Of a stretch of 34,731 bases of DNA, positions 1 through 6,236 are shown piece by piece (position 1 is the stretch's first letter; the number at the start of each line of letters is the position of its first letter). Under the pieces are notes generated by a model, which was given only the letters and a program-made list of their open reading frames with translations, did no database searches and had not been told where the DNA came from. A program made the translations under genes and the position numbers. The stretch is taken from NCBI GenBank assembly GCA_032358255.1, contig JAULBX010027717.1, positions 1-34,731 on the forward strand. The letters are read 5' to 3'. This DNA is from Heterotrichella gracilis. Lineage: Eukaryota > Sar > Xanthophyceae > Tribonematales > Xanthonemataceae.

Positions 1-56
1 AACCTAGCGAGCGTAGCGAAGCAATTGTTTAGTTCGATACGTCAAGGCGTGTTTGC

Positions 57-230
57 AGCGGCTATTTAACATAATGTTTATTATATATCAAAATACAAAC
101 TGTCAAAAGCCTTTGCCAGCCTGGATTTCGCCATATAATAACAATTATGTACGGCAGATCTGCCTTAAATAGCCACACATTGTCACGGGAGCAAAAAAGC
201 TCCGTTGACAATCTCCAACGGCAGACCGCC
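57..230. repeat. Repeat-rich, foldable intergenic segment
   Basis: No convincing gene is seen here. The stretch is packed with inverted repeats. GGCTATTTAA at 60-69 and its perfect complement TTAAATAGCC at 165-174 bracket about 95 bases. A perfect 12-base palindrome GGCAGATCTGCC lies at 153-164. A strong hairpin is formed by 179-192 and 199-212 around an A6 loop, with one bulged base. The element sits just downstream of the minus-strand gene at 274-825 and could be a remnant of a non-autonomous mobile element or recombination site; its left part may continue beyond the window. The short open frames through it have no recognisable features and look fortuitous. Confidence 0.5.
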
Positions 231-273
231 CGCTTGAGTTTATCGAACAAGACAATCCTTTCCTTCGGAAAGA

Positions 274-825
274 CTAAGGAAGTTTACGAATCAATTGATA
301 AGCAACAATCGAAATTAGAAAAAGAAACATCCAAGAAATTACTTGGGTTTTATCAGATAGGAAATCTAGAAAGTCAAGAATTAGAGTCCCAAAAGTCCCA
401 ATTGCAGCTAGAGCAGTTAATGCAAATATCTGTCTTCGGTTTCTTTCTGCCTGAATAGATATTCTATTCTTAGAAACATATCTTTCAGTATAGCCGCCTT
501 CAACTAAAATTAAAACCCTTCCTTCAAAAGTTATATTGTAGTAAATTACATCTTCATAAACATCTGCTGATGTTACAAAACTTCCGCCACTTGCATCTAT
601 ATAACCATCGGAAATCTTAATTCGTCCCGCTTCACTTGTAATAAATTCATCTTTTTTTAATTTATTTAAAATATAAATTACTTCATGCTCGCTAATTCTT
701 AGTCCTTTTTCATTTAATTGATTTCTTATTCCTTCGGCTGATCTAGGAAACGGAATAATTGGAGCTAAACATTCTAATATCGTGTCTAGTTGTTTATACG
801 GAGGCATTTTATCTAAATCTTCCAT
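274..825 (-). CDS. Hypothetical membrane protein with winged-helix-like N-terminus
   Basis: I do not recognise a named family. The N-terminal 70 or so residues read like a small winged-helix fold: a helix, then an RNQLNEKGLRIS helix-turn-helix-like stretch, then LNKLKKDEFITSE and a short hairpin with ISDGYI. The C-terminus has two hydrophobic segments (around FALTALAAIGTFGTLILDF and ISWMFLFLISIVAYQLI) separated by a short loop with a lysine, so the protein is probably anchored in the inner membrane. An ATG at 825 is preferred because a promoter-like pair lies just upstream and would give a leader of about 20 nt. A GTG at 840 in the same frame is possible and would add five residues. Function unknown; a membrane-tethered sensor or regulator would be a guess. 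Confidence 0.6.
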   Translation of the reverse strand: MEDLDKMPPYKQLDTILECLAPIIPFPRSAEGIRNQLNEKGLRISEHEVIYILNKLKKDEFITSEAGRIKISDGYIDASGGSFVTSADVYEDVIYYNITFEGRVLILVEGGYTERYVSKNRISIQAERNRRQIFALTALAAIGTFGTLILDFLDFLSDKTQVISWMFLFLISIVAYQLIRKLP

Positions 826-850
826 CCCACTAACATACACAATCCATTGG

Positions 851-880
851 TAAAGTTAAAATTCTGACACTTCAGTTCAA
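851..880 (-). promoter_or_regulatory. Bacteroidota-type promoter for the 274-825 gene
   Basis: On the minus strand TTG (878-880) is followed after 19 bases by TAACTTTA (851-858), a good match to the -33/-7 pattern TTG...TAnnTTTG used by the Bacteroidota primary sigma factor. Transcription would start near 845, just ahead of the GTG at 840 and about 20 nt before the ATG at 825. Confidence 0.5.
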
Positions 881-925
881 TAGTTTCTGGATAAACTTCC
901 CCACCCACCACCATTAATAATTAGG

Positions 926-1046
926 CTGCTGAGCCTGTCGAAGCATTAGGGCGCATCCCGTGCCTGCCCTGAGCCTGTCGAAGGGGGTCGGGCTATTACT
1001 TCAATCCTTGCGAAGGGCAAGGGATTTCCGTTCTATCCCTTACGCC
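926..1046. repeat. Dispersed Bacteroidota-type intergenic repeat
   Basis: Two direct copies of GAGCCTGTCGAAG lie at about 928-940 and 970-982. They sit around a GC-richer segment with AGGGCGCATCCCG at the left, GGTCGGGCTATT in the middle and CTATCCCTTACGCCT at the right, and with weakly complementary ends. From memory, elements of this layout (AGGGCG...GGTCGGGCTA...TATCCCT-ACGCC) recur between genes in many Bacteroidota genomes; no search was possible here. The composition is clearly richer in G and C than its flanks, as expected for an inserted element. It fills most of the 841-1159 gene-free stretch; the rest holds two promoters. Confidence 0.6.
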
Positions 1047-1061
1047 TGTGTGAAACTAAAA

Positions 1062-1113
1062 TTTGACATTGTCATTTATTTTGCTAATTTTGACCCATCT
1101 GGTCGGTCAAAAT
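1062..1113 (+). promoter_or_regulatory. Promoter with overlapping palindromic operator
   Basis: TTTG (1062-1065) and TAATTTTG (1085-1092) are separated by 19 bases, an exact match to the Bacteroidota -33/-7 pattern. A perfect 9-bp inverted repeat, ATTTTGACC (1087-1095) and GGTCAAAAT (1105-1113) with a 9-base spacer, begins inside the -7 element and covers the expected start point near 1098. That placement is typical of a repressor-binding site. The regulator is not identified; autoregulation by a product of the following two-gene operon is an inference. In RNA the same repeat could form a 5' hairpin. Confidence 0.65.
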
Positions 1114-1159
1114 TAAAAATGAATTTTTTAGTCATAATTTTTAGTTAAATTTGTTTGAA

Positions 1160-1915
1160 ATGTTTACGTGTAAACTTAAAATAGATAGCAAGAATCAAAA
1201 GCTTTCACTTAAGAACGGGCCTCCTCTAAAAGACCTAGGAGAGCTATTTTTAAAACTTTCAAAGTGTATAGAAACAGACAATATTAAATTTCTTTTAGTC
1301 GACGTTACTGAAGGTTCTTATGTGCCAGAGATTGCAACCGAGGTCGAAGAAGGCGTGACAAGGTTTAATAATGTTCACAATAGGATTGCTAATGAATATA
1401 TTGAAGATCTAGATTCAGATGAACAAGAATACGCTGCCGCATTAAATAAGCTTTTATTTAAGAAGGGAATTTATATTACAGCCGTGAACGACAAGGATGA
1501 TACGACCATAGAAATTCAATCCTTAAAAAAAAGTACTGCAAGGTTTTTTAATTCGATTACAACCATTAATGGCAGGATAGTTTCGATTGTTGGAGAAAAC
1601 GAATCAAAGCCGTATATCACTGTGGAAACTTCACAAAACCAAGACTATAAGATTTTTTTAACCAAAGATCAAGAGAAAAATTTAGGGGCCTTGTCCCTTT
1701 ACAAAAACGCCACTGTGCGCTGGAGGGTGAGAATTAAAACCGATAGTTTTAATAAAATTTCTGAAACGGCCACATTGTTTGACTTTGAAGTTCCGCGAAA
1801 TCGTAGTTTTTTAGAGGCTATTACTGACACACAGAAGCAATTTAGTGATGTATTTAAACACATCTCTGATTCCGCAAAACTTTTAGGTGCAATTAGAAAC
1901 GAGAACACTCTATAG
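1160..1915 (+). CDS. Hypothetical protein, first gene of PIN-domain operon
   Basis: A 251-aa soluble protein with no family I can name. The ATG at 1160 is preferred to the upstream TTG at 1151. The N-terminal third is mixed alpha/beta (LKDLGELFLKLSKCIETDN helix, then KFLLVDVTEGSYVPEI). An acidic segment around EDLDSDEQEY follows. The central part, TINGRIVSIVGENESKPYITVE onwards to TVRWRVRIKTDSF, alternates strands and glycines in a way that suggests a small beta-barrel, but this is only a reading of the pattern. No signal peptide or membrane segment is seen. It lies 8 bases upstream of a PIN-domain gene and is surely cotranscribed, so it may be a partner, inhibitor or substrate adaptor of that protein. 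It does not resemble the usual short DNA-binding antitoxins. Confidence 0.75.
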   Translation: MFTCKLKIDSKNQKLSLKNGPPLKDLGELFLKLSKCIETDNIKFLLVDVTEGSYVPEIATEVEEGVTRFNNVHNRIANEYIEDLDSDEQEYAAALNKLLFKKGIYITAVNDKDDTTIEIQSLKKSTARFFNSITTINGRIVSIVGENESKPYITVETSQNQDYKIFLTKDQEKNLGALSLYKNATVRWRVRIKTDSFNKISETATLFDFEVPRNRSFLEAITDTQKQFSDVFKHISDSAKLLGAIRNENTL

Positions 1916-1923
1916 GCAAAATT

Positions 1924-2526
1924 ATGCAGAAAAAACCCTTAAAGGATTGTGAGTTTATTTTTATCGACTCGGGAGTTTTTATTGATTTACTCAGAACCGA
2001 CTTTACAGGCGCAAGTGCAGAAACAAAATCTCGATCAGAAATTACTCAAAAGTTTTTTAGATCCCTATTTGACCCCGCTGTACTTGGTGGCAAAAAGAGA
2101 GTGTTTCAGATATCTGCAATAAGTATCGCTGAAATTTTCCATATAGACAATCAAGAAAACACACTGAAGGCGATTGTCTCGTTATTGGATACACAAGAAA
2201 TCGAAATATTTGCCTTTGATAATTCGGTTGCTATTTATCACAATAAAGAGTTTCACGATAAATTAAGCAATAAGGAGATTGAAAAACTAAAGCAATCACT
2301 CGGATATCCTACTAGCCAGTATACCAGCATAAAGGAGCGCATACGAAGGGACTTTATGATAGCGGCAACTGCTAAAATGTATAAAAGCGATTTGGTACTT
2401 ACCACCGATAGTGGGTTTTGTGAACTTTGCACCGGATTAGGAATTGCTTCACATCAATTCACAGAACTAGACGTTAAGTATCTTATGAGCGGTGACAAGA
2501 AGATTATTTACGATATTTTACCATAA
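1924..2526 (+). CDS. PIN-domain protein, putative ribonuclease
   Basis: The 200-aa protein has the PIN-domain layout: an N-terminal strand FIFIDSGVFIDLL with the first acidic residue (D15), AISIAEIF with E70, RRDFMIAATAKMY with D143, and LVLTTDSGF with D162. The four acidic residues that bind metal in PIN nucleases are therefore all present. PIN domains include VapC-type toxins that cut tRNA or rRNA, and also housekeeping nucleases. At 200 aa this is longer than a typical VapC (about 130-140 aa), the extra length lying between residues 25-60 and 100-135. It is the second gene of an operon whose promoter carries a palindrome, as in toxin-antitoxin units, but the upstream partner is atypically large. 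A tRNA-like RNA gene converges on it and shares its terminator. RNase activity and target are inferred, not shown. Confidence 0.8.
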   Translation: MQKKPLKDCEFIFIDSGVFIDLLRTDFTGASAETKSRSEITQKFFRSLFDPAVLGGKKRVFQISAISIAEIFHIDNQENTLKAIVSLLDTQEIEIFAFDNSVAIYHNKEFHDKLSNKEIEKLKQSLGYPTSQYTSIKERIRRDFMIAATAKMYKSDLVLTTDSGFCELCTGLGIASHQFTELDVKYLMSGDKKIIYDILP

Positions 2527-2555
2527 AAAAAGGGAGACATTTTGTCTCCCTTTTT
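2525..2555. terminator. Bidirectional intrinsic terminator
   Basis: GGGAGACA (2532-2539) and TGTCTCCC (2543-2550) form a perfect 8-bp stem with a TTT loop. There are five T's after it on the plus strand and seven T's on the minus strand (2525-2531 as A's), so it can end both the PIN operon and the convergent tRNA-like RNA. The A and T runs also lengthen the stem. Confidence 0.85.
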
Positions 2556-2671
2556 AGTTTCAGTCCTCCGATGCGGCCATTACACCAATTCCCCATGTTA
2601 GACGGCTAATTTTGTGGAGAATACGGGAATCGAACCCGTGCCTAAGGATTATCTTAAATATCCCCGTCTAA
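2556..2671 (-). ncRNA. Circularly permuted tRNA/tmRNA-like RNA gene
   Basis: Reading the minus strand, a T arm (stem ACGGG/CCCGT, loop TTCGATT, 2639-2623) runs straight into acceptor strand ATTCTCC (2622-2616) and A73 (2615). After a 21-nt linker (2615-2595) comes GGGGAAT (2594-2588), the complement of that acceptor strand, with one G-U at pair 3-70. Next come a D-arm-like stretch with GGTG/CATC and a GG in the loop, then GAGGA-CTGAAA (2568-2558). GAGGA pairs with TCCTT (2648-2644), which lies before the T arm. The rejoined anticodon loop would read CTGAAA+A, anticodon GAA, with U33 and A37 in place. The gene has its own promoter just upstream and a terminator just downstream. The order 3' half, linker, 5' half is that of permuted tRNAs and two-piece tmRNA, yet there is no GGATTCGAC-like tmRNA motif and no tag frame. 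CCA is not encoded. Only one base separates acceptor and D stem in this pairing, which is slightly unusual. Confidence 0.7.
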
Positions 2672-2674
2672 TAT

Positions 2675-2705
2675 TAAAGTTACGAAATAAAAACCCTATA
2701 GTCAA
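2675..2705 (-). promoter_or_regulatory. Promoter of the permuted tRNA-like RNA
   Basis: On the minus strand TTG (2703-2705) is followed after 20 bases by TAACTTTA (2675-2682). The expected start is near 2669-2671, exactly where TTAGACGG, the first strand of the 8-bp flanking helix of the RNA, begins. Start and terminator therefore delimit a transcript of about 120-145 nt. Confidence 0.6.
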
Positions 2706-2886
2706 GTTTAAATCACTTTTTTTACAAATTATTTAATCAAACACACTTATCCCCGCCCTGAAGGACGCTTTATTTGGAATAGTTAGTCCTTTCTTCAAAC
2801 CCAACCCCACGATACCCACAACCGAAACTATTGAACATACTACGGGATTATCTTTTTTTCCCCAAAAAAAACTTTAACTTTATCTC

Positions 2887-2988
2887 ATGAATCCACTCCT
2901 TAACAAGATCAAACTGGGCAGTCTCATCCTTATGGGCCTTTCATTCATTGTGAGCCTGCTTGAATTGGCTTCAAACATTTCTCTTTAA
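2887..2988 (+). CDS. Possible 33-aa membrane peptide
   Basis: The frame begins with ATG at 2887 and encodes MNPLLNKIKLGSLILMGLSF followed by a further hydrophobic stretch and a short polar tail. It has one likely membrane helix with two lysines before it. A -7-like TAACTTTA (2875-2882) lies directly in front, so a transcript would start almost at the ATG (leaderless); a -33 element is not evident. It is the only candidate between the tRNA-like RNA and the 3088 gene. Its reality rests on composition and promoter spacing alone. Confidence 0.3.
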   Translation: MNPLLNKIKLGSLILMGLSFIVSLLELASNISL

Positions 2989-3052
2989 TCTTAAAAACCT
3001 CCCGTTTTCGTCTAAATTACATCCTTAGCCACCGCTTTTTTAATCAAATGAC

Positions 3053-3083
3053 TTGATTTCGGCTCTTTCATTTCGTATATTTG
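3053..3083 (+). promoter_or_regulatory. Promoter for the 58-aa protein gene
   Basis: TTG (3053-3055), 20 bases, then TATATTTG (3076-3083), an exact match to TAnnTTTG. The start point would fall within a few bases of the ATG at 3088, implying a leaderless or nearly leaderless message. Confidence 0.6.
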
Positions 3084-3087
3084 ATTT

Positions 3088-3264
3088 ATGGAAAAGCCAA
3101 AACACATCCCTATTATCGATCACAGTAAGCCTAAAAAGACCCCCACCAACTTTGTGCGTCAAACATCGGCTCCCTCCCCTGATAAAAAGTCTAAGGGACC
3201 TGTAGCCACGGCTAAAAAAACGTCTATCTGGAACAAAAAACAAGACGAATCCTGGGAATACTAA
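3088..3264 (+). CDS. Small basic Lys/Pro-rich protein, 58 aa
   Basis: The frame starts MEKPKHIPIIDHSKPKKTP, is rich in lysine, proline, serine and threonine through the middle, and ends with a tryptophan-containing acidic tail (SIWNKKQDESWEY). It is probably disordered with a short folded or binding C-terminal motif. An exact consensus promoter sits in front of it, which argues for a real gene. No family recognised. The antisense open frame across the same DNA lacks such support. Confidence 0.5.
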   Translation: MEKPKHIPIIDHSKPKKTPTNFVRQTSAPSPDKKSKGPVATAKKTSIWNKKQDESWEY

Positions 3265-3327
3265 GTTAATTTCAAAATCAAACTTTAATCTATCTTATTT
3301 ATTGCGGACTCTATTCGCCAGCCTTTT

Positions 3328-3600
3328 ATGAACGAACAACTCCTTCAACTTCAATCTTCGGTTTCGGCCATTATTTACAACCCTTTTGTTAATCTTAAAG
3401 ACCAAATAAAACAAGCTAAGTCGCTCATTGCCAAACAAGCAGAGTTTAGCGCTGAACTCAGCCGACTCAATGATAGTCTCGAAGAACTCGAGGTATTAGA
3501 AGACTTGCCACACGGTAATCTGGAACGTATTAAAGGCTTTAACAAGATCAAAACCAGAACCCTTAAACTCATCAAAGAACTACTTAGCAAAACCGCCTAA
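3328..3600 (+). CDS. Small coiled-coil hypothetical protein
   Basis: A 90-aa, almost wholly helical protein. Residues 25-60 (LKDQIKQAKSLIAKQAEFSAELSRLNDSLEELE) show heptad spacing of leucine, isoleucine and alanine typical of a coiled coil, and the C-terminus is basic (NKIKTRTLKLIKELLSKTA). No signal peptide or membrane segment. The next gene begins one base after its stop, so the two are cotranscribed and perhaps translationally coupled. Function unknown. Confidence 0.65.
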   Translation: MNEQLLQLQSSVSAIIYNPFVNLKDQIKQAKSLIAKQAEFSAELSRLNDSLEELEVLEDLPHGNLERIKGFNKIKTRTLKLIKELLSKTA

Positions 3601-3601
3601 G

Positions 3602-3808
3602 ATGGAATTTCCGGAAAGAGATAATTCGAATTATAAATGGAAGATGTTCTATTTTAATCCACTCGACAAGCGTTTGATCGTGCCAAAACCAAACCCCAAT
3701 TTTGGAGTGACCTTTAATTTTGCACATAAAAAAGCCTATCTTTTCTTTCTGCCTGTCTTGCTTATCCCGGCTTTTATCCTTCTTTTAAAGTTTATTTTAG
3801 AAAAGTAA
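3602..3808 (+). CDS. DUF5808-like small membrane protein
   Basis: A 68-aa protein. The N-terminal half, KMFYFNPLDKRLIVPKPNP then GVTFNFAH, matches the DUF5808 pattern as I remember it (YxNPxDxRxxVPKxxGxGxTxNFAxxxA). A single hydrophobic helix (AYLFFLPVLLIPAFILLLKF) follows. In that family the motif is a short soluble domain attached to membrane segments, of unknown role. It sits one base behind the coiled-coil protein gene. The motif match is good but was made by eye. Confidence 0.7.
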   Translation: MEFPERDNSNYKWKMFYFNPLDKRLIVPKPNPNFGVTFNFAHKKAYLFFLPVLLIPAFILLLKFILEK

Positions 3809-3851
3809 GATAATATACCCCTTCACTCAAAAGAGGTTTTACGCTATTTTT

Positions 3852-3882
3852 TTTGTAAAAATTAATAAATTACATATATTTA
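3852..3882 (+). promoter_or_regulatory. Promoter for the 3905 gene
   Basis: TTTG (3852-3855), 19 bases, TATATTTA (3875-3882); the expected start is about 3888, leaving a leader of about 17 nt before the ATG at 3905. Confidence 0.55.
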
Positions 3883-3904
3883 CATACATCCTAAATTGAG
3901 AAAT

Positions 3905-4153
3905 ATGATCCGATTCGACCTTAAACTGCTGCCGGAAGAAGGCGCAAATCCTGAAGAGTCAAAATTAATTTCTACTTCCAATGCGCTTGCCAAACACGCT
4001 TGCGATCATTTGAAAAAATTGATCGGAAAAAGAAAATGCCGTAAACACCCGAGCAGTCCTAATAAATTACGCATTTTTGCGGTTCTCGGAAAAGATCCGC
4101 GTGCTGAGTTAGTGGCCTATTGCTGTCCTGATTTTGTAAAACGGATCAAATAA
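3905..4153 (+). CDS. Cys/His-rich small protein, possible zinc site
   Basis: An 82-aa protein starting at the ATG rather than the upstream TTG at 3896. It has a spaced set of possible metal ligands: H-A-C-D-H near residue 33, C and H in RKCRKHP, and a CC pair in YCCPDF near the C-terminus. The rest reads as a compact alpha/beta protein (LRIFAVLGKDP, AELVAYC). I know of similar small conserved proteins in Bacteroidota but cannot give a function. It has its own promoter and ends 18 bases from the convergent VF530-like gene. Confidence 0.6.
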   Translation: MIRFDLKLLPEEGANPEESKLISTSNALAKHACDHLKKLIGKRKCRKHPSSPNKLRIFAVLGKDPRAELVAYCCPDFVKRIK

Positions 4154-4171
4154 TTTTCAGCAACACAGCAT

Positions 4172-4393
4172 TTATTTCTGAATTGTTTTAAGATACAATT
4201 CCTCCACTTTTTTTCGTGCCCAAGGTGTTTTACGCAAAAAGGTCAGACTTGATTTGATGCTTGGATCCTGATTAAAACACTTGATGTCGATCTTAATTCC
4301 CAAATGTTCCCAACCGTAATAATTCACCAGATGTTCTACAATCATCTGCAATGTCTTTCCGTGCAAGGGATCTTTTGATTCACTATTTTGCAT
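4172..4393 (-). CDS. VF530 (DUF2132) family protein
   Basis: The 73-aa sequence carries the diagnostic stretch DPLHGKTLQMIVEHLVNYYGW, then IKCF, DPSIKSSLTFLRKTPWARKKVE. This is nearly the full consensus of the VF530/DUF2132 family of small helical proteins proposed to bind DNA. Length fits the family. It starts 11 bases inside the end of the RNase HI gene and so is probably translated by coupling. A biological role is not established for the family. Confidence 0.9.
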   Translation of the reverse strand: MQNSESKDPLHGKTLQMIVEHLVNYYGWEHLGIKIDIKCFNQDPSIKSSLTFLRKTPWARKKVEELYLKTIQK

Positions 4394-4850
4394 GTTGTAC
4401 TATTTTTCGAAGTGCGTTTCTTACCAGTAGATCGACCTCTCTGTTAATTAGATCACCGTCTTTTTTATGTGCTTTTACCTTGGTATAGCTGATGTCATAG
4501 TTTGTGGAATAATTTAAGAGAAGTGTGACCAGATCCTTGTTTCTAATATCAGAGCCTTTTTTGGTGGTAAAATCTTTTTTTTCTAAGCGCTCTTTTCGTG
4601 ATTGTAAATTAACGGCGTACTGACTATCAGTAAACACACAGATCTCTTCCTGATGCAAATTTGCTTTCACTAAATAGTCAATGGATTTTAGGATGGCTAA
4701 TAACTCCATTCTGTTATGTGAGGTTTCATGTTCACTGCCTTCTAAAATTATTTTTTTGGAATCAATGAACAAGATGGCCGCCCAGGTACCTATCTTCAGC
4801 TGTGTATGACAACTTCCGTCGGTGTAAATTTGTATTATTTGACGATCCAA
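4383..4850 (-). CDS. rnhA: Ribonuclease HI
   Basis: The 155-aa protein is of standard RNase HI length and removes the RNA strand of RNA-DNA hybrids. Active-site residues are visible: D10 in IYTDGSC, E49 in HNRMELLA, D75 in VFTDSQYAV, and D140 in NREVD, with a histidine in VKAHKKDGD corresponding to the flexible catalytic loop. The frame appears to start at TTG (4850), giving MDRQIIQIYTDGSC, which aligns well with family starts; no ATG lies upstream in frame before the divergent gene. A TAnnTTTG-type box (minus strand, 4883-4890) gives a short leader. It is the first gene of a pair with the VF530-like gene. Confidence 0.9.
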   Translation of the reverse strand: MDRQIIQIYTDGSCHTQLKIGTWAAILFIDSKKIILEGSEHETSHNRMELLAILKSIDYLVKANLHQEEICVFTDSQYAVNLQSRKERLEKKDFTTKKGSDIRNKDLVTLLLNYSTNYDISYTKVKAHKKDGDLINREVDLLVRNALRKIVQHAK

Positions 4851-4915: not shown

Positions 4916-5617
4916 ATGTCCCCTACTCCGCTCATATTGGTTGTTGAAGATGAAGAAAACCTGGCCAATACGCTGGTGTTAAATTTAGGAATGGAAGCCT
5001 ATAAAGTTATCTTAGCCCGCAGCGGAAACGAAGCCCTTTCTTTATTTCATAAACATCATAAATCGATCAACCTGCTTTTGCTCGATGTGATGCTCCCTGA
5101 TATCAATGGTTTTGACCTGTGTAAACAATTAAAAGAAACAGAACCTGATCTGCCTGTTTTGTTTTTAACGGCTAAATCGCAGATCAATGATAAGATCACC
5201 GGACTTAAACTTGGTGCAGATGATTATATGACAAAACCCTTCGACTTGGAGGAATTACTTTTGCGCATCAGCAATATTTTAAAGCGTCATAAAAAAACAA
5301 ACACTTCCCTTTTTCAATTCAATAATTGTGAAATTAATTTTCAAACCTTTGAGATCTGTGATCTGAGAGGTCAAAGAACCACCTTATCCAAACGCGAAAT
5401 TGGACTTCTTTCTTTGCTGACTGAACATGCCAATCACGTTATTTCAAGAGATGAGATCATTGAAAAACTGTGGGATGTGAATGAAAATGCCTCCTCTCGT
5501 ACCATTGACAATTACATTCTTAATTTCAGAAAATACTTCGAACACAATCCAAAAGAGCCTCAGTTCTTTCATTCCATTAGAGGTGTGGGATACAAATTTG
5601 TGCTTACCAATAAATAA
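4916..5617 (+). CDS. OmpR/PhoB-family response regulator, orphan
   Basis: A 233-aa two-domain regulator. The receiver domain (1-120) has the acidic pair E11/D12, phospho-acceptor D57 in LLLLDVMLP, T85 and K107 in MTKPF. The winged-helix DNA-binding domain (about 130-230) contains LSKREIGLLSLL, the recognition region SSRTIDNYILNFRKYFE and the wing IRGVGYKF. The open frame extends further upstream, but the ATG at 4916 gives the normal start (ILVVEDEE). No histidine kinase lies nearby, so its sensor must be encoded elsewhere. It is followed after 7 bases by a helicase-like gene and then a mannosyltransferase gene, apparently one operon. Confidence 0.9.
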   Translation: MSPTPLILVVEDEENLANTLVLNLGMEAYKVILARSGNEALSLFHKHHKSINLLLLDVMLPDINGFDLCKQLKETEPDLPVLFLTAKSQINDKITGLKLGADDYMTKPFDLEELLLRISNILKRHKKTNTSLFQFNNCEINFQTFEICDLRGQRTTLSKREIGLLSLLTEHANHVISRDEIIEKLWDVNENASSRTIDNYILNFRKYFEHNPKEPQFFHSIRGVGYKFVLTNK

Positions 5618-5624
5618 AAGAATT

Positions 5625-6236
5625 ATGTTTAAAGAAAAATTAATTAAAAAACTCGTTCAGGCCCTTGAAGAATATAAGTTTGCAGAACCAACTCCTTTTC
5701 AAGCCAAAGCACTTTCTACCATAAATTCAGGGGTGGATGTGATTGGCATTGCTCCTGAAGGTTCGGGAAAAAGCACCTTGATCACCATTGCCGCTATTCA
5801 AAAACTGCAACGACCCATTGAAGATGCTCCCAAAGTGCTCATCATTGTTGGTAACAAAGAAAAGGGTTTGATCATGGAAGAACAGTTTGATCTGTTTGGA
5901 AGAGAAACCGGATTGCGCGTGAATACCGCTTATGAAGAAGGGGATATTGACGAACAAAGTATCGATATTTATGATGGCACCGATATATTGATTGGCACCG
6001 CTAAACGGGTGCTGGATATTTATTTTACGCGAAGTTTAAATATTAAAATGATCAAATTGTTTGTGATTGACGATCCTGAAATGATCATTAAAAATTCGTG
6101 GCAAGGTCAGATCGATCGACTGGCCTTGAGTTTACCTAAATGTCAACACCTCGTCTTTACAACCGAAATGACAGAAAAAATTGAAAAACTGATCTCCAAA
6201 TTTATCATCGCTCCTAAAGTCATTGAACTAAATTAA
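5625..6236 (+). CDS. Single-domain DEAD-box-like protein, degenerate motifs
   Basis: The 203-aa protein corresponds to the first RecA domain only of a DEAD-box RNA helicase. Q-motif-like residues are F19 to Q26 (FAEPTPFQ), and the Walker A is APEGSGKST (43-51). A GTAKR segment stands where TPGR is usual, motif II is VIDDPE (147-152) instead of DEAD, and motif III is TTE instead of SAT. The second RecA domain, essential for unwinding, is missing, and the gene stops cleanly with the next gene 14 bases on. It may bind ATP or RNA but is unlikely to be a helicase. The frame is open upstream, but the ATG at 5625 matches family starts. Confidence 0.8.
   Translation: MFKEKLIKKLVQALEEYKFAEPTPFQAKALSTINSGVDVIGIAPEGSGKSTLITIAAIQKLQRPIEDAPKVLIIVGNKEKGLIMEEQFDLFGRETGLRVNTAYEEGDIDEQSIDIYDGTDILIGTAKRVLDIYFTRSLNIKMIKLFVIDDPEMIIKNSWQGQIDRLALSLPKCQHLVFTTEMTEKIEKLISKFIIAPKVIELN

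Follow-up and report, generated by a model that had tools for sequence, protein, structure and literature searches.

A circularly permuted tRNA-like unit with a homologue in a second genome probably encodes a tRNA-mimicking small RNA

Genomic setting

The window, by which we mean the whole stretch of 34,731 nucleotides that was analysed, lies on a contig of a mixed 68.5-Mb assembly. On its minus strand, at 2525-2705, stands a compact unit that consists of a promoter match, a short leader, the 3' half of a tRNA, a 20-nt linker, the 5' half and a terminator hairpin (Table 1). The unit is convergent with a PIN-like gene (1924-2526), whose product scores 23.2 bits for the PIN domain, narrowly short of the 23.6 that Pfam requires. 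This gene is the second of a two-gene operon (1151-2526), the first gene of which encodes a 254-aa protein of no assigned kind. Elsewhere the assembly holds two Bacteroidota-like copies of CarB (contigs C520 and C552, 92% identical) together with exon-like CarB pieces on another contig, and the 90%-identity relatives of a PaaZ-like protein are Bacteroidetes MAGs, one of them labelled Chitinophaga pinensis. A tRNA-Phe on contig C674 of this mixed assembly equals that of a relative over 74/74 bases. No empty site could be read on C552 because this contig is not syntenic upstream.

The PIN-like neighbour was considered as a toxin paired with the RNA, and this idea was dropped because no link was seen across loci L240 and L241 and the 87 family and 395 class genomes. 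The PIN-like gene had no match in the 87 family genomes, in a search that ran without a positive control and is weak for that reason, and had one distant match (27% identity) in the 395 class genomes, at L240, where the two-member model described below (R3) finds nothing. None of the four scanned proteins of L241, the locus that holds the homologue of the unit, has a PIN domain.

Some odd tRNA-like sequences were encountered on the way. An RNase H gene near the unit is homologous to an RNase H gene of the relative locus L026, in which a tRNA-like gene with an apparent hairpin insert in the anticodon loop lies at 1549-1640, about 2.8 kb from the RNase H gene. At L102 (1455-1525) a tRNA-like gene with an oversized anticodon loop, called tRNA-Leu(taa) by ARAGORN and scoring 40 bits with the Rfam tRNA model, stands several hundred bases downstream of what by eye appears to be a reverse transcriptase frame. 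A host relative carries a dense tRNA array (L165; G003 C1 287500-295500) with 18 RF00005 matches between 288007 and 294943, some of them low-scoring, and this array is possibly a mobile element.

Organization of the permuted unit

The preliminary description had placed the 3' half of a tRNA before its 5' half, and this order is borne out on the minus strand at 2558-2657. Pairing in all four arms was likewise confirmed: 21/21 pairs form, four of them G.U, with seven in the acceptor stem (one G.U, 3-70), five in the T stem, four in the D stem (two G.U) and five in the anticodon stem (one G.U). The linker described earlier is present, and its length is corrected from 21 to 20 nt after A73, since the earlier figure includes A73. 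The unit departs from a normal tRNA at position 21, which is C and not A, at 26, where one nucleotide is added, and in its variable loop of 4 nt. All seven acceptor pairs are those of tRNA-Ala(GGC) in two relatives (L104 and L107). The 12-mer TTAAGATAATCC, which straddles the start of the tRNA part, has no copy in 2.8 million strand-bases of loci L005-L084, and the 9-mer GGACTGAAA at the other end is the 5' side of a tRNA-Phe anticodon loop. An 8-bp perfect helix between leader and linker (TTAGACGG/CCGTCTAA, 2664-2671 with 2598-2605) was also considered as part of the structure; it is treated as chance because the homologue forms at most three pairs there, and the structural reading was dropped.

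Table 1. Features of the permuted unit, in coordinates of the window
Feature	Position	Strand	Remark
Bacteroidota-type promoter match: TTG (2703-2705), 20 nt, TAACTTTA (2675-2682)	2675-2705	-	
Conserved 12-mer TTAAGATAATCC	2646-2657	-	last 3 nt open the anticodon-stem 3' strand; identical in L236
Anticodon stem, 3' strand TCCTT	2644-2648	-	pairs with 2564-2568; one compensatory pair in L236
Variable region AGGC	2640-2643	-	
T arm (ACGGG TTCGATT CCCGT)	2623-2639	-	same as tRNA-Glu T arm in relatives
Acceptor 3' strand ATTCTCC	2616-2622	-	pairs with 2588-2594; U70 faces G3; three compensatory pairs in L236
Discriminator A73	2615	-	
Linker, 20 nt	2595-2614	-	closes acceptor hairpin; 18 nt in L236
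Acceptor 5' strand GGGGAAT	2588-2594	-	
D arm (GTGT AATGGCC GCAT)	2571-2585	-	GG in loop
Anticodon stem, 5' strand GAGGA	2564-2568	-	
CTGAAA	2558-2563	-	3' of the anticodon-stem 5' strand
Conserved 9-mer GGACTGAAA	2558-2566	-	identical in L236 and in tRNA-Phe of relative L149
Terminator hairpin with T tract	2525-2555	-	common to the convergent gene

That a promoter and a terminator delimit the unit, as described earlier, also held. The upstream site TTG-20-TAACTTTA fits what we take to be the Bacteroidota -33/-7 promoter form, a pattern with a background of 0.017 per 100 nt in L005-L084; a sigma-70 scan gave 2 sites against 1.0 expected, which is background. Downstream, a 13-bp terminator hairpin followed by a U tract is visible in the fold, and the terminator scan itself listed none.

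Tests for chance and tRNA identity

A geometric finder of permuted tRNAs returned one match in the window, with a score of 21/21; as a control, order-3 Markov sequence amounting to 20 million strand-bases gave 16 matches, none above 19. A laxer version, run on both strands of 199 fetched loci (1.73 Mb), gave 11 matches besides the window copy, of which seven lay away from ordinary tRNAs, all at 18 or less, and four fell on ordinary tRNAs and reached up to 20. Junctions between tandem copies of one ordinary tRNA also reach 21; no ordinary tRNA flanks the window unit. To make a general permuted-tRNA covariance model, 27 ordinary tRNAs from fetched Bacteroidota loci were permuted in silico, the window being left out; this model scores the unit at 35.9 bits (E 6e-10). 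Since this model scores tandem tRNA arrays high as well, the permuted picture alone is no proof of a permuted gene.

ARAGORN calls no tRNA in the window as it stands. With the halves swapped back, the check suggested in the preliminary description, 30 ways of rejoining gave 10 calls of tRNA-Phe(GAA), three of an ambiguous tRNA and 17 times no call; the join at 37/38, which yields a 7-nt loop, is among those read as tRNA-Phe(GAA). Another check suggested there, the permuted tmRNA model (RF04321), gave a weak partial match of 24.3 bits, below its cut-off of 47. Further Rfam matches of the unit are likewise below cut-off (sraA, 31.8 against 56 bits; tmRNA, 18.8 against 47), the YrlA family RF02553 has no match in 2400-2800 at E up to 10, and no Rfam family reaches its cut-off on the window unit or on its homologue. 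The precursor of the window RNA is predicted to favour folds other than the permuted one (-43.1 versus -34.8 kcal/mol, about 8 apart). In both members the pieces left by simulated cutting cofold to a shape like a cloverleaf. The longest stretch of consecutive pairs that tail and leader can form is four in each member.

A homologue in a second genome

The genomes of the same class, presumably Bacteroidia, were searched for a T arm that follows a Bacteroidota promoter at a distance of 20-45 nt, which leaves too little space for a normal tRNA. This pattern occurred at eight places in 7/395 genomes, and a reversed control pattern gave one match. One of the eight places, L236, shows the sequence TTG-21-TATATTTG, a leader, TTAAGATAATCC, a 3' half, a linker, a 5' half ending in GGACTGAAA and a terminator. 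Its promoter pattern (TTG, 21 nt, TATATTTG) stands at the matching place; its terminator hairpin is at the same place with a different sequence, and in both members the terminator begins a few nucleotides past the anticodon-loop residues. The other seven places have no match to the two-member model R3, and an ordinary tRNA-Glu lies close to one of these places (L235).

In a pair alignment of the window unit with L236, 16 of the 17 counted pairs are kept in both and five are changed on both sides, compared with zero or one double change when the partners are slid and with 13/500 shuffles that reach five. The double-changed acceptor pairs are 4-69, 5-68 and 6-67, and G1-C72, G2-C71, G3:U70 and A73 are kept in both members. 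The D arm of L236 (GTTA ATAGGTT TAAC, offset by one nucleotide, by eye and fold) differs on both sides at two of its four pairs, 12-23 and 13-22 (by eye), which stand outside the count of 17. L236 has defects: its T stem is bulged and pair 7-66 is mismatched. It is the homologue with the permuted layout and compensatory stem changes that the preliminary description had asked for.

RNAalifold, unaided, recovers the anticodon helix, the T helix and most of the acceptor helix, with 7/19 pairs double-changed; the D stem is absent from its prediction, which includes two further pairs that do not belong to the cloverleaf. The unconstrained fold of L236 comes close to the permuted cloverleaf, with outer helix (only 5 bp at minimum energy), acceptor, D arm and a 3-bp T stem (five pairs with a bulge in the centroid). 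Its z score, terminator included, is -3.5, none of 200 shuffles being as good, and the pair probabilities of the permuted fold are 0.60-0.96.

The general permuted model finds L236 at 41.1 bits. With the window-only model L236 does not stand out from tRNA loci by score, since it reaches 39.0 bits and a tandem tRNA-Phe pair 42.4 bits, and its local alignment to the window scores 49 versus 51 for ordinary tRNA-Ala loci. What sets it apart from them is the identical 12-mer, eight nucleotides of which lie outside the tRNA part, and the end-to-end alignment, the two cores scoring 83 globally versus a maximum of 45 in 2000 shuffles. It is further set apart by having no flanking tRNAs and by the promoter and terminator in place. 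ARAGORN calls no tRNA on L236, and 1450-1750 of this locus has no RF02553 match at E up to 10 and no listed RF04321 match.

The genes next to the two members differ. In L241, the locus that holds L236, the homologue lies between a type ISP restriction-modification gene (3-4604) and a ComM-like (Mg chelatase) gene (5155-5913) that is truncated at the N-terminal side. This suggests that a genomic island ends here.

Searches for further members

Two covariance models were used, R2 built on the window alone and R3 built on the window and L236; the genome searches ran with speed filters and took few candidates per genome. At E<=0.01, R2 matched 13 places in 11 of the 87 family genomes, namely 11 ordinary tRNA genes, one tmRNA (L190) and L198, where ARAGORN makes no call and the matched sequence is the same as in the tRNA-Ala locus L191. 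At E<=3e-4 it matched 29 places in 24 of the 395 class genomes, namely 27 ordinary tRNA genes, many of them tandem pairs, one tmRNA and L219. Apart from the YrlA-like L219, R2 thus returned no other isolated unit in the 87 and 395 genomes; it also missed L236, although the genome of L236 was among the 395 searched, so its sensitivity is poor. In the 80 loci L005-L084, R3 matched nothing at E<=1, and in 73 further chosen sources its eight matches at E<=0.01 were the two members, five ordinary tRNA or tmRNA loci and L219.

A BLAST search with the unit (211 bases) at E<=1 gave matches in each of 12 relative genomes, all short (43 bases or less) and none the unit, and in its own assembly at E<=0.001 it found only the window itself. 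The permuted tmRNA family has three weak matches below cut-off in the same assembly (26 of 3281 candidates scored). An arm pattern had no match in GTDB genome contigs, and a pattern of T arm, CTCCA and GGGG occurred at 15 places in 12/87 family genomes, which we read as ordinary tRNA ends with spacer or terminator. A phage or plasmid origin was considered and set aside. Three unit-pattern searches of viral contigs gave nothing, another pattern gave three loci, all with ordinary tRNA arrays, a further one gave 15 loci without a permuted unit, and a pattern with at least 120 stretches gave 80 loci among the matches listed, none with an R3 match; the window unit and L236, when compared with phages and plasmids by BLAST, had short matches only. 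The known members are two, the window unit and L236.

Comparison with known permuted RNAs

To our knowledge, bacteria are without the splicing endonuclease of permuted tRNA genes. Such genes of red and green algae, a nucleomorph and Thermofilum resemble the unit in their swapped halves and in the cloverleaf that forms once these are joined; they differ in carrying splice motifs and in being ligated into decoding tRNAs (PMC3978253), whereas in the window unit no bulge-helix-bulge was recognised. The table of a 2014 review, as excerpted, places permuted tRNA in Archaea, algae and a nucleomorph and lists none for Bacteria (PMC4033280).

The preliminary description correctly named permuted tmRNA as a bacterial permuted RNA and overlooked the permuted tRNA-like fold of YrlA. 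The bacterial Y RNA is described as circularly permuted relative to tRNA, with PDB 6CU1 given for the YrlA structure (PMC11472068, in part), so a permuted tRNA-like architecture is already known in bacteria. According to passages of PMC8394870, YrlA has a large basal stem that binds and tethers Rsr/Ro60, and a tRNA-like domain; it also binds PNPase and is modified by DusA and TruB. In the unit, as in YrlA (RF02553), an outer helix encloses a T arm, an acceptor-like hairpin and a D arm, and the permuted order of these arms is the same. In contrast to YrlA, the outer helix of the unit has only 5 bp in place of the long basal stem, and the window unit and L236 have a conserved flank of their own (UUAAGAUAA/CUGAAA) and G3:U70, without a match to RF02553. 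No TROVE domain was found at E<=0.001 in 19 of the 38 listed window ORFs or in four of the 10 listed L241 ORFs.

L219 is a tRNA-like RNA that adjoins a Ro60/TROVE gene and was found in the survey with the window-only model. It agrees with YrlA in order and structure at 38 bits, below the gathering score of 69, reaches 63.1 bits with the general permuted model and has the same arm order as the window unit. On the minus strand of L219 (1-1640) the Ro60/TROVE gene and the YrlA-type RNA are followed by several short stretches that repeat GTTACTTCG with T-arm-like pieces (by eye), which looks from the sequence like a putative array of divergent Y RNAs.

In tmRNA, G3:U70 and A73 make up the alanine identity. 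Permuted two-piece tmRNA (RF04321) shares these with the unit, as well as the gene order of 3' half, linker and 5' half; unlike it, the unit has no tag sequence or pseudoknots and possesses a proper D arm and an anticodon-stem-like helix. Two-piece tmRNA arises from permuted genes, and a jakobid mitochondrial tmRNA lacks the tag region (passages of PMC3985003). In the titles, abstract beginnings and passages of the open-licence literature that were available, we found no description of the present RNA.

Interpretation and alternatives

L236 shares with the window unit the place of the promoter, the 12-mer, the 9-mer, the terminator, compensatory pairs and a near-cloverleaf fold, and the unit is for that reason regarded as a conserved small RNA and not as a tRNA scrap. 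It is probably a real RNA that imitates a tRNA, and probably not a tRNA that works in translation. The account that we favour, with moderate confidence, is a small RNA that stands alone, measures about 150 nt, has a circularly permuted tRNA-like fold and serves as a tRNA mimic. Directly observed are the arms, the fact that a second genome of the class conserves them through compensatory changes, and the matching positions of promoter and terminator; that the small RNA is transcribed and acts as a mimic, much as the tRNA-like module of YrlA does, is what we infer from them. The T arm, the acceptor hairpin with its loop of about 20 nt and the D arm would be held together by the anticodon-stem helix. 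Enzymes that bind tRNA would see the tRNA-like top, and a partner protein might read the strongly conserved UUAAGAUAA/CUGAAA next to the anticodon stem. The acceptor loop may be opened by RNase P and tRNase Z, so that a two-piece RNA is left; ligation to a decoding tRNA most likely does not take place.

The identity of the acceptor stem gives rise to a different account, which we consider unlikely, in which the RNA resembles a tmRNA without a message: RNase P and tRNase Z would cut out the linker, CCA would be added, and AlaRS would charge the nicked RNA through G3:U70 and A73, the alanine being given outside decoding or in ribosome rescue. G3:U70 is an alanine identity element, and 18/22 tRNAs with this pair, among 203 parsed tRNAs (some of them viral), are called tRNA-Ala. 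The top three acceptor pairs and A73 are kept while the three pairs below are double-changed, the cut pieces cofold like a cloverleaf in both members, and two-piece and tag-less tmRNAs are on record, all in keeping with this account. However, two sequences are too few to speak of selection on one G.U pair, the RF04321 match is below cut-off, a tag or pseudoknots would not fit, and at least three other loci of the class (L017, L190 and L225) have an ordinary tmRNA. We think it quite doubtful that the unit stands for a new bacterial RNA family in some Bacteroidota, an alanine-charged permuted two-piece RNA without usable anticodon or message in non-decoding alanyl-tRNA use or ribosome rescue. 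The same G3:U70 pair, pointing to alanine, speaks against a precursor of translation tRNA-Phe that would undergo cutting at 37/38 and ligation in the way known from red algae. In its favour, the joined halves are tRNA-Phe(GAA) to ARAGORN, and CUGAAA and the A-UCC loop residues, identical in both members, match the tRNA-Phe of a relative; yet the mixed assembly has a canonical tRNA-Phe, no bulge-helix-bulge was recognised, the longest tail-leader run is four, and the 2014 table, as excerpted, is without a bacterial permuted tRNA. Such a precursor is very improbable. Of the earlier claim, the permuted tRNA-like unit stands; a decoding tRNA is not supported, given that no processing or ligation signal was recognised, that the mixed assembly has its canonical tRNA-Phe, and that the two members are strongly conserved outside the tRNA part as well (TTAAGATA).

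The unit could also be what is left of a tandem pair of copies of one tRNA after the outer half of each was lost, which we hold to be improbable. Junctions of identical tandem tRNAs give exactly such a picture, tandem duplication with loss of the outer parts is the published origin model of permuted genes (PMC3978253, in part), and the arms match ordinary tRNAs of relatives. These arm matches indicate no particular parentage, because ordinary tRNAs of different isotypes share the arms equally well (acceptor 9, anticodon 22 and T arm 47 of 203). Against a relic stands L236, the same isolated unit with compensatory changes and eight identical nucleotides upstream of the tRNA part; double-changed pairs would not be expected to be kept in a relic. 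As the origin of the gene, tandem duplication would stay likely even if the gene is expressed. The same arm order would suit a true YrlA Y RNA bound by Ro60/Rsr protein, a reading that is as improbable as the tRNA-Phe precursor, since RF02553 has no match, the long basal stem is missing and no TROVE domain appears in the scanned ORFs of the two loci (19/38 in the window and 4/10 in L241).

Implications

As a tRNA-mimicking small RNA, the unit would be another kind of bacterial tRNA imitator with swapped halves, apart from Y RNA and tmRNA. Such mimics may escape notice since they are passed over by tRNA finders: ARAGORN called neither member, and on neither did an Rfam family score above its cut-off. 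Should the RNA carry alanine, it would be a tRNA-like carrier of an amino acid with a role other than decoding, of which few examples are known. The unit gives a direct test of how RNase P and AlaRS deal with permuted substrates in nature.
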